Below, in pieces: positions 3,582-56,823 of a stretch of DNA of 64,000 nt. The stretch's first letter is position 1. Every line of letters begins with the position of its first letter. Source of the stretch: Phycicoccus sp. HDW14. GTDB lineage: Bacteria; Actinomycetota; Actinomycetes; Actinomycetales; Dermatophilaceae. The stretch spans positions 3,782,001 to 3,846,000 of the forward strand of contig NZ_CP049935.1 in the NCBI RefSeq assembly GCF_011383005.1. Reading direction: 5' to 3'. The notes beneath the pieces are model-generated. The model saw only the letters and a program-made list of their open reading frames with translations. It was not told where the DNA came from and did no database searches. A program made the position numbers and the translations under genes.

Positions 3582-4821
3582 CCCCCGACGAGGTCCTGGC
3601 CACCACCGTGCGCGAGGAGTGGGGGCGGCTCGTCGCCCTCCTCCTCGGCCGGTTCCGGCGGCTGGACCTCGTCGAGGACGCCCTCGGGACGCGGTCGAGG
3701 CGGCCGCGCGCCGCTGGCCCGCCGACGGCGTCCCCGACTCGCCGGCGGCGTGGCTGCACACCGCGGCCCGTCGGCGGCTGCTCGACCGGCTGCGGGCCGA
3801 GGCGATGGCGGCCCGCAAGGCACCCCTGCTCGTCGTCGACGCGGACCCGGAGGGAGGTGCGGGCGTCATGGCCGACCCCGGCGACCTCGTCGAGGACGAC
3901 GTGCTGCGTCTCGTCCTCATGTGCTGCCACCCGGCGCTCGGGCCCGAGGTGGCCAGCGCCCTCGCCCTGCGCCTCGTCGTCGGTGTCTCGACCGCCGACA
4001 TCGCGCGGCTCTTCCTCGTGCCCGAGCCCACGATGGCCGCGCGGATCACCCGCGGCAAGAAGAAGATCGCCGCGGCCGGCATCCCGTTCACGGTGCCGGC
4101 CGCCGACGACCTGCCCTCGCGGCTGCGGGTCGTCGCCCAGACCGCCTACCTCGCCTTCACGGCCGGGTACGCGCCCGGCTCCGGGCCCGACCTGCTGCGC
4201 GCCGACCTCGCGGGCGAGGCCGTGCGGCTGGTCCGCGTGACCCTGGCCGTACGGCCCGACGAGGCGGTGCTGCGGGCGCTGCTGGCCCTCGTCCTGCTCC
4301 AGCACTCGCGGCGGGACGCCCGGGTCGGCGCGGACGGCAGCCTCGTCCTCCTGCCCGACCAGGACCGCTCCCGGTGGCACCGCGGCGAGGTCGACGAGGC
4401 GGTGCGGGTGCTGGCCGGGCTCGGGCCGTCGGCGGACCTGCTCACCGAGTCCTACCGCCTCCAGGCCCTCATCGCCGCCGAGCACGCCCTCGCCCCCGCG
4501 GCGGCCGACACCCGGTGGGACCGGATCTGCGCGGCCTACGACGCCCTGGCCCGGGTCAGCCCGTCCCCGATGGTCAGGCTCGCCGCCGCGGTGGCCGTCG
4601 CCGAGCGGGACGACCCCGCGGCAGGACTGGCCGCGCTCGACGGGCTGGACGCCGAGCTGCCCGGGAGCCATCGGCTGCCCGCCGTCCGCGGTGAGCTGCT
4701 GGCCCGGCTGGGCGACGACCGTGCCGCCATCGCCGCGCTCGACGAGGCGATCCGGCTGTGCGGCAACGAGGTCGAGCGCGCCCACCTCATCGAACGCCGG
4801 GACGGCCTGGCGTCCGACTGA
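3578..4821 (+). CDS. ECF42-group RNA polymerase sigma factor (DUF6596), frameshifted in this sequence
   Basis: The N-terminus TTVREEWGRLVALLLGRFRR is sigma region 2. The frame breaks at GGG 3686-3688; one added G joins it to DAVEAAARRWP, giving about 414 residues. Region 4 with its DUF6596-type sequence follows: LMCCHPALGPEVASALALRL and TADIARLFLVPEPTMAARI. A long alpha-helical C-terminal extension of about 200 residues follows, as in ECF42 sigmas, which lack a classical anti-sigma factor. The GTG start overlaps the last YCII stop. It is expected to direct RNA polymerase to the YCII promoter at 2422-2448 and so to its own operon. Confidence 0.88.
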
Positions 4822-4832
4822 CCCGAGGGGTC

Positions 4833-4879
4833 TGCGGTGATGCACGGGGCGGGACATCCGCCGCGCCTGCATCACCGCA
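4833..4879. repeat. Intergenic hairpin, 12-bp perfect stem
   Basis: TGCGGTGATGCA (4833-4844) is repeated inverted and perfectly as TGCATCACCGCA (4868-4879) around a 23-base GC-rich loop. It lies between the convergent sigma-factor and acyltransferase genes. There is no T-run, so it may be a bidirectional terminator or a member of the hairpin class seen elsewhere in the window (23397-23446, 39467-39513). Confidence 0.6.
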
Positions 4880-23396: not shown

Positions 23397-23446
23397 AGTA
23401 GGCAACACGCACAGATCCGGGCCCGACCGCCTGCGTGTTGCCTACT
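23397..23446. repeat. Intergenic hairpin, 15-bp perfect stem
   Basis: AGTAGGCAACACGCA (23397-23411) and its exact complement TGCGTGTTGCCTACT (23432-23446) flank a 20-base loop containing CCGGGCCC. It lies between the stop of the VOC gene and the start of the SRPBCC gene, both on the minus strand. It could be a terminator or a dispersed hairpin element: the loop size and its CCGGGCCC core resemble the 39.5-kb hairpins. Confidence 0.7.
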
Positions 23447-37810: not shown

Positions 37811-39439
37811 GTGCCACACGGAGACGGACGCCTCAGCCACGACCTGATTCCCGGTGAGAAGGCCCCCAGGACGCCTGCGGGGTGTTCGGGGTCTGGGCCC
37901 CCGGCGAGGACGTCGCCAAGCTCACCTACTACGGCCTCTACGCGCTGCAGCACCGCGGGCAGGAGTCCGCGGGCATCGCGACCTCCGACGGCAAGCGCCT
38001 CCTCGTCTACAAGGACATGGGGCTGGTGTCGCAGGTCTTCGACGAGCGCTCGCTCGCCTCGCTGACCGGCCACCTCGCCGTCGGGCACTGCCGGTACTCC
38101 ACGACCGGCGGCTCGACCTGGGAGAACGCCCAGCCGACCCTCGACGGGCACGACGGCTCGACCGTCGCGCTGGCCCACAACGGCAACCTCATCAACGCCG
38201 CCGACCTGCGCGACCTCGTCGCCGGCCACCGGGTCGAGGGCCACCGCGGTGAGATCGCCCGGGCAACACCACCGACACCGCGCTGGTCACCGCCCTCCTG
38301 ACGCACGACCCCGACCGCACCCTCGAGGCCGCCGCGCTCGACGTGCTGCCGATGCTGCGGGGCGCGTTCTGCTTCGTGTTCATGGACGAGCACACGCTCT
38401 ACGCCGCGCGCGACCCCAGGGGTTCCGCCCGCTCGTCATCGGCCGGCTCGAGCGGGGGTGGGTCGTCGCCTCGGAGACCGCCGCCCTCGACATCGTCGGC
38501 GCCTCGTTCGTCCGGGAGGTCGAGCCCGGCGAGATGATCGCGATCGACGAGGACGGCCTGCGCTCGCAGCGCTTCGCCCCGGCCGCGCCGCACGGCTGCG
38601 TCTTCGAGTACGTCTACCTCGCCCGGCCGGACACGACGATCGCCGGTCGCGGGGTGCACGAGGCCCGCGTCGAGATGGGCCGCACGCTGGCCCGCGAGCA
38701 CCCCGTCGAGGCCGACATGGTGATGCCCACCCCGGAGTCCGGCACGCCGGCCGCCATCGGGTACGCGCAGGAGTCCGGCATCCCGTACGGGCAGGGGCTC
38801 GTCAAGAACTCGTACGTCGGGCGCACCTTCATCGCCCCGTCGCAGACCATCCGGCAGCTGGGTATCCGGTTGAAGCTCAACCCTCTTCGCGAGGTCATCA
38901 AGGGCAAGCGGCTCGTCGTGGTCGACGACACCATCGTCCGCGGCAACACGCAGCGCGCGCTGGTGCGGATGCTGCGCGAGGCCGGGGCGGCCGAGGTGCA
39001 CGTGCGGATCTCCGCGCCGCCGGTGCAGTGGCCGTGCTTCTTCGGCATCGACTTCCCGACGCGCGCCGAGCTGATCGCCACCGGCCTGGCCGTCGAGGAG
39101 GTGTGCACCTCGATCGGGGCCGACTCCCTCGGCTACATCTCCGAGGAGGGGATGGTGGCCGCCACCCGTCAGCCTCCCGAGCGGCTGTGCACGGCGTGCT
39201 TCACGGGCGTCTACCCGGTCGCGATGCCCGAGGACGGCCGGCTCGGCAAGGGCGTCCTCGAGCTCGAGCTGCCGCTGGGCGGCGGGGGTCGCGGTGGCGG
39301 TGGCGACTCGGACCCGCGGGCCGTGGGGGAGCGGCACCCGCACCGCCAGGCGCCGCTCGTCGACGTGCCCGTGCTCGACGTCGACGGCGTGCCGACCTCC
39401 GCCGGCGGTGGCGCGGCCGAGGCCGTCCTCCGCCCCTGA
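37811..39439 (+). CDS. purF: Amidophosphoribosyltransferase, three frameshifts in this sequence
   Basis: Restored length 543 residues. The short propeptide MPHGDGRLSHDLIPGEKAP-QDA precedes the catalytic Cys of CGVFGVWAPGEDVAKLTYYGL. LQHRGQESAGIA, HCRYSTTGGS, LAHNGNL, the ESGTPAAIGYAQESGIPYG region and the PRPP loop VVVDDTIVRGNT follow. Bases are missing at CCCCC 37863-37867, GGG 38261-38263 and CCCC 38413-38416, each restored by one base. It starts purine synthesis by transferring ammonia to PRPP. purF is essential without purine supply, so three real null lesions are implausible. GAGGAT ends 7 bases before the GTG. Confidence 0.93.
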
Positions 39440-39466
39440 CCCCGCCGTTCTCCCCCTCTCACCCCG

Positions 39467-39513
39467 GTTCGAGGTGAAACCGGGCCCTCTCGTGGTCCGT
39501 TTTCACCTCGAAC
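39467..39513 (-). repeat. 49-bp hairpin family, copy 1
   Basis: GTTCGAGGTGAAA (39467-39479) pairs perfectly with TTTCACCTCGAAC (39501-39513) around a 21-base loop. The family orientation is read from the asymmetric loop; copies 1 and 2 lie one way, copies 3 and 4 the other. It begins 27 bases after the purF stop. Confidence 0.8.
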
Positions 39514-39540
39514 GGCGGCGAGGCCGATGTCTGATGTGCG

Positions 39541-39588
39541 CGTCGAGGTGAAGCCGGGCCTTCTGGTGGTCTGCTTTCACCTCGAACC
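39541..39588 (-). repeat. 49-bp hairpin family, copy 2
   Basis: TCGAGGTGAA (39543-39552) and TTCACCTCGA (39576-39585), with the same loop order as copy 1 (GCCGGGCC then GGTGGTCTGC). It follows copy 1 in tandem, 29 bases on, just before the stop of the nuclease-like gene. Confidence 0.78.
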
Positions 39589-39606
39589 CGACGGGGTACC
39601 GGGTCA

Positions 39607-40548
39607 TCAGGCGGCCGACCGACCGACTCGCAACCGGTAGGCGGTGCAGATCTGGTCGAGGTAGGCGTCTCTGGACAGTCTCCAGCCCAGCAGTGCGACC
39701 CGGAGCACGAGCTCGTCGCCGAGCTGGATGTCGTTCTGCCGCATCGTGTCGTCGAGCATCTGCAGCCCTGCGAGGTGCCCCGACCCGTCGACCTCGACGA
39801 CGAGCCGGGCCTCCGCCCACTCGAGGTCGAGGTAGGCCTTCCCGCCCGGCAGGCGTCGGACGGCCTGCCGGGTCGGTGGGGGCAGGCCCCGACGGCGAAG
39901 TGCCTCGACCACGTCGATCTCGCCCAGCGAGTGCGCACCGTCCGCGATGTCGGCCACCACGGTGCGGATGAAGGCGCGCCGCGTGCGGCCCCGCACGACG
40001 GTGACGGCCTCGAGGAGCTGGGCGCCCGTGCAGAGGCGCTGCTGGACCGGTAGGACCAGGAGCAGGGCCGCCTGCCGGTCGCTCACCGCCCAGTGGGCTG
40101 CTCGGACGGCCGCAACCGCGGGGACCGTCCGGGGGAGGCCGGCGCCCACGACCTCGTGGGGGACGCGCCGGATGACCTTGTGGATGACGACTCCCTCGAC
40201 GTCCTCCACCTCGGTGGTGTGCCGGACGGAGACGTGGACGCGGTCGTCCTCGAAGCCGGTCATCCCCGCGTGCTGGAGGGCGGTGACACCGTCGACGGCC
40301 GCGACCCGCGCGCCGACCTCCCAGACTGCGCGCCAGCGCCGGGCAAGGGGGTCGAGCGCGCCGTTGGTCGTCGACACGGTCTGCACCCCGTGGCGGACCC
40401 ATCGCCCGGCCTTGACCTCGCGCCCGACCATCCGCCGGTCGACGCCGGCCTCGCGCAGCCTGCGCCGCGAGAGCACTCCGCCGTGCTCGAGCGAGAGGGC
40501 GGCGGCGCGGGCCCGTCGAGCCGCCACCGGGTCGCGAGGGTCGGACAT
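39607..40548 (-). CDS. AbiEi-like HTH plus DUF559/PD-(D/E)XK nuclease-like protein, bracketed by hairpins
   Basis: 313 residues. The N-terminus resembles AbiEi-type antitoxin domains: ALSLEHGGVLSRRRLREAGVDRRMVGREVKAGRWVRHGVQTV, then DGVTALQHAGM. The C-terminus looks like a DUF559/Vsr-type nuclease fold: GEIDVVEALRRRGLPPPTRQ, KAYLDLEWAEARLVVEVDGSGH (candidate E-x-n-D/E-x-x acidic cluster) and DELVLRVALLGWRLSRD. No AbiEii toxin gene is adjacent. Two hairpins lie after its stop and one, in opposite orientation, 105 bases upstream of its start. Such genes are numerous in actinobacteria and their role is unknown. Confidence 0.75.
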   Translation of the reverse strand: MSDPRDPVAARRARAAALSLEHGGVLSRRRLREAGVDRRMVGREVKAGRWVRHGVQTVSTTNGALDPLARRWRAVWEVGARVAAVDGVTALQHAGMTGFEDDRVHVSVRHTTEVEDVEGVVIHKVIRRVPHEVVGAGLPRTVPAVAAVRAAHWAVSDRQAALLLVLPVQQRLCTGAQLLEAVTVVRGRTRRAFIRTVVADIADGAHSLGEIDVVEALRRRGLPPPTRQAVRRLPGGKAYLDLEWAEARLVVEVDGSGHLAGLQMLDDTMRQNDIQLGDELVLRVALLGWRLSRDAYLDQICTAYRLRVGRSAA

Positions 40549-40652
40549 GGAGGCAGCGTCGCAGTGGCCGGTGGCGGGTCGACAGGGCCGGTGGGCCGCC
40601 TGTGGACGGTTCGCCGACGGCGGCCTCCTGTGGACGAACCGCCGACCAGCGT

Positions 40653-40703
40653 CGGTTCGAGGTGAAGGTGCACCACGAGAGGGCCCGGTTTCACCTCGAA
40701 CCG
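40653..40703 (+). repeat. 49-bp hairpin family, copy 3
   Basis: CGGTTCGAGGTGAA (40653-40666) pairs perfectly with TTCACCTCGAACCG (40690-40703), loop 23 bases. The loop is the reverse complement of copy 1 (ACGAGAGGGCCCGG against CCGGGCCCTCTCGT), so copies 1 and 3 are inverted relative to each other across the nuclease-like gene. Confidence 0.82.
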
Positions 40704-40737
40704 GGGACCGAGGAGGTCGAACCGGCGAGAGGGAGGC

Positions 40738-56774: not shown

Positions 56775-56823
56775 GGGTTCGAGGTGTTACCGACCCGCGA
56801 GGGGGCCCACTGTCACCTCGACC
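56775..56823 (+). repeat. 49-bp hairpin family, copy 4 (diverged)
   Basis: GGTTCGAGGTG near 56776 and TCACCTCGACC near 56812, with CGAGGGGGCCC in the loop. It has the same orientation and element order as copy 3 but several mismatches, and lies 20 bases after the AraC stop. Confidence 0.65.

Follow-up and report, generated by a model that had tools for sequence, protein, structure and literature searches.

A putative nuclease cassette bounded by cognate palindromes in Phycicoccus and related actinobacteria

We analysed a 64,000-nt stretch of the Phycicoccus sp. HDW14 chromosome (the window), in which a gene for a predicted nuclease fusion is bracketed by palindromes, together with homologs of this gene in its own and related genomes. 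On balance, we consider it probable that palindrome, gene and palindrome form one unit, a palindrome-bounded nuclease cassette with a layout like that of REP elements and RAYT and an enzyme like a homing endonuclease, which would recognise and cleave DNA. Sequence comparison shows that the palindromes flanking a gene share one sequence, also with solo copies elsewhere in the genome where these were searched for, and that this sequence changes with the protein. At a fixed chromosomal site the block occurs in both orientations and in several allelic forms, and where the limits of exchange are sharpest they coincide with the palindromes. A package of this sort, exchanged and turned round at fixed positions, suggests selfish or mobile DNA of a kind not yet described.

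Predicted protein and palindromes at the window locus

For the product of 313 aa the prediction is a DNA-binding antitoxin of AbiEi type joined to a Vsr/I-Bth0305I-type nuclease (Table 1), in agreement with the AbiEi and DUF559/PD-(D/E)XK architecture that an earlier, sequence-only reading of this DNA had proposed. Pfam returned AbiEi_4 and DUF559 matches that are each under the curated cut-off (12.4 bits for DUF559, PF04480, against a cut-off of 20.6), so that the domain reading rests on the predicted fold. The N-terminal part has the predicted AbiEi fold of AbiE type IV toxin-antitoxin systems, and the C-terminal part the predicted catalytic fold of EDxHD/Vsr-type homing endonucleases, with conserved acidic and histidine residues (E210, D241, E252, H258 and D267) unchanged in 73 of 73 aligned proteins. 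Profile comparison with PDB sequences gave weak matches only, for example PvuRts1I (E 0.005), PADLOC gave weak AbiEi matches, and PHROGs gave none. An HUH match was absent in Pfam and among the fold matches listed for the window protein, and the predicted AbiEi and Vsr/EDxHD folds, which take up nearly the whole chain, would leave no room for an HUH domain, so that one is probably absent. The gene lies directly between purF and an amino-acid permease gene, and neither of these two neighbours is an AbiEii nucleotidyltransferase toxin gene. purF itself (37882-39436) carries its N-terminal part in one frame and the remainder in another; the split is due to a frameshift, or to an error of sequencing, at about 38.25-38.42 kb.

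Table 1 Features of the nuclease gene locus and its palindromes in the window
Feature	Position	Strand	Remark
Palindrome copy 1	39467..39513	+	Between purF end and 3' end of nuclease gene
Palindrome copy 2	39541..39588	+	Oriented like copy 1; about 20 bp beyond the gene's stop codon
Predicted AbiEi-Vsr fusion gene, product 313 aa	39607..40548	-	From ORF, Pfam, predicted fold and alignment
Predicted Vsr/EDxHD-type nuclease part, residues 205-313	39610..39936	-
Predicted AbiEi-like part, residues 6-202	39943..40533	-
Palindrome copy 3	40653..40703	-	104 bp 5' of start codon; inverted relative to copies 1 and 2
Degenerate solo palindrome, copy 4	56775..56823	+	3' of another gene's stop codon

The sequence-only reading had described three copies of one hairpin around this gene, the upstream copy inverted, and both points were borne out: copies 1-3 were found again at the coordinates of Table 1 with the common stem TCGAGGTGAA/TTCACCTCGA, and 39452-39513 is 87% complementary to 40655-40716 across 62 nt. 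Folded as single-stranded DNA, copies 1, 2 and 3 were better than shuffles (z -5.4, -3.0 and -5.6). The fourth copy, described earlier as diverged, has the correct length and partial arms, but its fold is no better than shuffles (z -0.66); we therefore list it as a degenerate member on its length and arms, without a folding signal. Occurrence at hundreds of gene ends had been named as an outcome that would count against a link to the gene; counted as exact copies, the arms TCGAGGTGAA...TTCACCTCGA occur five times in the 4.07-Mb genome, three of them at the nuclease gene, and a reversed control pattern does not occur in it at all. Rfam had no match in the window.

In the TCGAGGTGAA hairpin, an internal stretch that is for the most part unpaired lies between the arm and an inner stem, GACC/GGTC, which is conserved. 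Across the family, 35 of 39 units had at most one pair at three internal positions, where pairing was near the expectation under independence (observed 7 against 11.7, 7 against 10.6 and 18 against 14.1).

Other palindromes and paralogs were present in the same genome (G000). A solo palindrome GGTGATGCA...TGCATCACC at 4833-4879 of the window has the outer stem of the palindrome lying 3' of a paralog, L058, and may represent a second gene-palindrome family in the window. L058 (G000:C1:1891554-1892469) was matched as two pieces, with its palindrome still 3' of the gene. For a long palindrome AGTAGGCAACACGC...GCGTGTTGCCTACT at 23397-23446 of the window no cognate gene was identified, and a further paralog, of GTGTGTGAAC type, lies at G000:C1:771894.

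Bracketing of homologs and pairing of protein with palindrome

A sequence search of 58 genomes, comprising the window's own and its relatives, found the gene in 31 of them, and a scan of named genomes yielded 80 loci, including ones from Phycicoccus, Intrasporangium, Janibacter, Knoellia, Terrabacter, Humibacillus, Flexivirga, Aeromicrobium and Nocardioides. The 66 match rows of the search (E ≤ 1e-10) came to 63 once three homologs, each represented by two pieces, had been counted as single spans; a weak own-genome match at 1695588 lies outside these rows. Together the 143 loci gave 124 after removal of copies and 117 with both flanks. Controls were neighbouring genes from the named loci, called with a crude ORF caller (289 for the hairpin test, 280 for flank alignment).

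A matched hairpin pair surrounded the gene in 44 of 117 homologs and in none of the 289 controls, and a flank-to-flank repeat with a score of at least 20 was found in 77 of 117 homologs compared with 0 of 280 controls (85 and 7, respectively, at a score of at least 16), counts that are not independent trials phylogenetically, as the 117 genes and the 12 genomes of the genus are kin. Grouped by how closely they match the window protein in identity, these 77 comprised 32 of 39 homologs at 50% or above, 26 of 41 at 45-50%, 9 of 14 at 40-45% and 10 of 23 below 40%. The repeat was missing at this score in 40 homologs, in some of which the palindrome overlaps the stop codon or sits in an over-extended ORF and was trimmed by the flank test. 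The 5' palindrome ended 50-150 bp upstream of the start codon in 36 of the 44 matched pairs.

The inverted frame, which the sequence-only reading had described at this gene, was not supported as a defining feature of the family; it is one of two layouts. Strong flank pairs were better aligned as direct repeats in 47 cases and as inverted repeats in 30, and hairpin pairs were direct in 33 and inverted in 11, although these calls are partly ambiguous because the repeats are near-palindromic. Bracketing may extend to some of the canonical DUF559 genes: class-wide, 30 such loci were fetched, and 6 of the 25 usable ones, taken without controls of their own, scored at least 20, one of them exactly 20. 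One canonical DUF559 gene, L274 (G141:C17), has a 102-bp imperfect palindrome directly repeated on both sides (score 79.5), far longer than the palindromes of the window gene's family.

Stems vary from gene to gene among homologs, and the pairing of palindrome and gene recurs in other genera with different palindromes, which supports the earlier proposal of such a pairing. Palindrome similarity was correlated with protein similarity (Mantel r = 0.63, 44 genes; reached in 0 of 5000 permutations), and left and right palindromes of the same gene were more similar than permuted pairs (median 0.85 against 0.57, 53 genes). Multi-copy intergenic palindromes cognate to a gene, which characterise REP/RAYT systems, were thus found here.

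Extra palindrome copies elsewhere in the genome largely track the gene. Within the genus, TCGAGGTGAA palindromes occurred only in the 5 of 12 genomes that have a gene at least 65% identical, with copy numbers of 5 (G000), 14 (G003), 1 (G004), 20 (G005) and 17 (G009), and in none of the other 7. All five genus genomes with the gene at the purF locus have palindromes there, so the gene without hairpins at the same locus, the other outcome named against the pairing, was not encountered. GTGTGTGAA palindromes were present in 9 of the 12 genomes, 8 of which hold a gene that either has this type of palindrome or occupies the same site; the ninth, a 710-contig assembly (G002), has 11 GTGTGTGAA palindromes and no matching gene was found in it. 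As a forward test in another genus, the palindrome TCAGACCATC...GATGGTCTGA, taken from the flanks of the G029 gene, was searched in 27 genomes and gave 10 copies in G029, two of them at the gene, and none in the 26 others. Two further genomes depart from the rule: in G003, which has 14 TCGAGGTGAA copies, the palindromes beside the gene are of the TCGAGGTAT type, and in the genome of the window 9 TCGAGGTAT palindromes were counted but a gene of that type was not found. Three of these nine orphans on G000:C1 are spaced 159 bp apart near 1492058.

Chromosomal sites, allele exchange and solo palindromes

When a site was called shared if at least 900 bp of the flanks were homologous, on either or both sides, 74 of the 124 genes lay at sites common to several genomes, and both orientations were present at 10 of 14 sites. 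The purF site alone accounted for 23 genes, of which 15 point one way and 8 the opposite way, and there was no inconsistency in 217 pair comparisons; one of its members, G017:C88, is joined to it by a single edge of 73% identity. On a protein tree of 110 of the 124 genes, site changed 17 times compared with a shuffled mean of 43.6, indicating that genes cluster by site and that long residence outweighs jumping, and orientation at the purF site changed 6 times. Residence of the cassette is thus long, yet replacement recurs.

The breakpoints of such replacements were sharp at the palindromes on both sides in 2 of 9 same-site pairs examined. Two Humibacillus xanthopallidus strains have flanks of 92% and 97% identity that end within ~10 bp of the outer edges of the palindromes; from one strain to the other the cassette is inverted, the protein is identical at 216 of 304 positions (71%) and the palindromes differ (for L148, a 3' palindrome was identified by visual inspection). 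Between P. jejuensis (G003) and G009, flanks of 92% and 95% identity end within ~13 bp of the palindrome edges, and the cassette is inverted with 73% DNA identity. Flank homology stopped near the cassette, less sharply, in L140/L114, L090/L106 and G025/L097; G025/L104 was colinear all along, and L094/L105, L121/L153 and L109/L116 were not informative on both sides.

Comparing empty with filled sites, as the sequence-only reading had proposed, revealed an empty purF site in P. flavus, where the end of purF is followed directly by the gene found beyond the cassette in Phycicoccus sp. CSK15P-2 (read by eye); the flanks of filled and empty sites are too divergent for exact target-site duplications to be read. 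Different alleles at one allelic site alongside an existing empty site are what homing endonucleases leave, and directed homing is putative here. Carriage by phages or plasmids was considered and set aside, as the plasmid collection and viral contigs contained no homolog and the phage collection a single doubtful record. That record, MT837139.1, is an unannotated 7.6-kb sequence from human faeces labelled phage, with a 46% identical homolog at 3691-4539, and is possibly a mislabelled bacterial contig.

The 71 palindromes in fetched loci, four of which are at cassette genes, stood between convergent genes in 31 cases, tandem genes in 22 and divergent genes in 1, while 14 overlapped a crude ORF call and 3 were at an edge. 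The distance to a gene 3' end was at most 35 bp in 49 of 84 cases. Away from the gene, the eight G029 copies were in six tandem, one convergent and one divergent positions.

Recent spreading of the solo hairpins was not seen in a comparison of G006 with G007. In all, 19 of 20 G006 units were paired, every one at an orthologous position; a single unit from each genome, that of G006 in L209 and that of G007 in L213, was partnerless in the fetched sets. Recent transposition of solo palindromes was looked for at two G006 sites without an exact partner in G007 and was rejected, since both hold a palindrome with a mutated arm in G007. Solo copies are old and stay put, and movement was not seen on the G006/G007 time scale. 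The two genomes differed at 2 of 342 arm positions, 46 of 425 inner positions and 172 of 1982 near-flank positions (arms compared with flanks, Fisher p = 2.5e-10), a contrast from which selection of G006 units for exact arms had removed part of the expected change. This conservation implies that solo arms are strongly constrained or renewed, and suggests that the protein, or host use of the sites, still maintains them. No inner-stem pair was preserved through changes on both sides between G006 and G007, and the inner-stem covariation in the GTGTGTGAA family may stem from two subtypes. Ordinary terminators were rejected as an identity for the palindromes, given a stem that copies within one genome have in common but that changes from genome to genome, and arms that are conserved while the inner part diverges like the flanks.

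Doublets or longer runs of palindromes were common, with spacers of ~20 bp. The gene at L146 (4986-5903) has five palindromes on each side with periods of ~70 bp. In the L242 array two spacers are identical and a third unit has the other stem, which suggests that array units were converted or swapped. P. jejuensis, with its purF-site cassette of TCGAGGTAT type, has 5 other TCGAGGTAT palindromes; four adjoin exact TCGAGGTGAA palindromes and the fifth adjoins two stretches resembling the window palindrome.

Proposed mechanism, rival explanations and known systems

Our wider proposal is tentative, and we regard it as possible rather than established: that these genes form a new class of mobile element, in which an AbiEi-Vsr cassette would home into its own symmetric palindrome either way, swap alleles, shift specificity together with its palindromes and seed solo palindromes, with many further DUF559-type members across Actinomycetota. 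In the cassette reading that we consider probable, the AbiEi-type domain, kin of binders of palindromic promoter sequences, would read the palindrome arms, and the Vsr/I-Bth0305I-type nuclease would cut at or beside the palindrome, whether this is present as an inverted repeat in duplex form or extruded as a hairpin. The donor cassette would then be copied in by repair; the symmetry of the target would allow either orientation, and solo elements would arise from palindromes that stay behind or are copied by themselves. If the extruded hairpin were the form recognised, as in REP processing, the resident genome's own copies could be spared, which is one possibility. Arm recognition is likely by analogy, given the predicted AbiEi fold and the binding of promoter palindromes by AbiEi of Streptococcus suis (PMC11062541), and cutting near a long symmetric site is plausible from the predicted I-Bth0305I fold, since members of that family reportedly form dimers on a target almost 60 bp long (PMC3943268).

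The same predicted AbiEi fold and the same S. suis report (PMC11062541) would also fit a repressor with a regulon, in which the AbiEi-type domain autoregulates through the 5' palindrome, solo palindromes are operators and the nuclease acts elsewhere. The position of the 5' palindrome 50-150 bp upstream of the start in most matched pairs and the conserved solo arms agree with this, but solo copies lie mostly at gene 3' ends, with a single divergent intergenic location among the 71, the 3' copy brackets the gene as well, and the sharpest exchange breakpoints fall at the palindromes; we judge it quite unlikely. The 3'-end locations instead suit domesticated REP-like DNA, in which the palindromes serve as host mRNA 3' ends, barriers or supercoil sites, the nuclease is a hairpin-processing housekeeper, exchange is ordinary homologous recombination through conserved flanks, and divergence reflects fast evolution of gene and palindrome. 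The positional orthology and conserved arms of solo copies, and a tree strongly clustered by site, fit as well. Cassette inversion, however, is unexpected from homologous recombination through flanks, two pairs keep 92-97% flank identity up to the palindromes while the cassette differs, and palindromes track the gene in most genomes searched, which leaves this account unlikely. Still further down we place a defence or toxin-antitoxin module with palindromes as incidental terminators, a very improbable reading despite the predicted AbiEi-type fold and the weak PADLOC matches: purF and the permease gene, not an AbiEii-like toxin gene, are directly adjacent, incidental terminators would not share a stem within a genome yet differ between genomes, and no T tract followed the hairpin in copies inspected by eye.

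The palindrome-bounded cassette that we favour would work as a blend of REP/RAYT with a homing endonuclease of the free-standing kind, a likeness in which membership of either group is putative. It resembles the REP/RAYT (TnpA_REP) REPtron, as described in PMC8266576, in that enzyme gene and cognate palindrome covary and that many solo copies are intergenic and in tandem groups. It differs in that the enzyme is a predicted AbiEi-Vsr fusion with no HUH domain found among the matches listed, that exact copies number 1-33 per genome, and that the cassettes are flanked by palindromes on both sides and occur as alternative alleles at fixed sites in either orientation. Unlike the free-standing EDxHD homing endonuclease I-Bth0305I, the putatively homing cassette has palindromes on both sides, several to many intact putative targets per genome, an AbiEi-type DNA-binding part and a chromosomal actinobacterial host. 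From AbiE type IV toxin-antitoxin systems it is set apart by the nuclease fusion, the palindrome bracketing and a locus with no AbiEii-like neighbour, and from DUF559 (PF04480)/Vsr by a window protein that scores under the Pfam cut-off. Among the matches listed from open-licence papers, preprints not included, none linked DUF559- or AbiEi-type genes to flanking palindromes.

REP/RAYT is a known example of palindromes paired with an enzyme gene. If our reading is true, the cassettes would be a second such pairing, made with an unrelated nuclease of Vsr/homing fold and an antitoxin-type DNA reader, and the strategy would have arisen more than once. A family of actinobacterial genes about which little is known would gain a function as well, and dozens of natural protein-palindrome specificity pairs would become available for studying how such nucleases choose their DNA.
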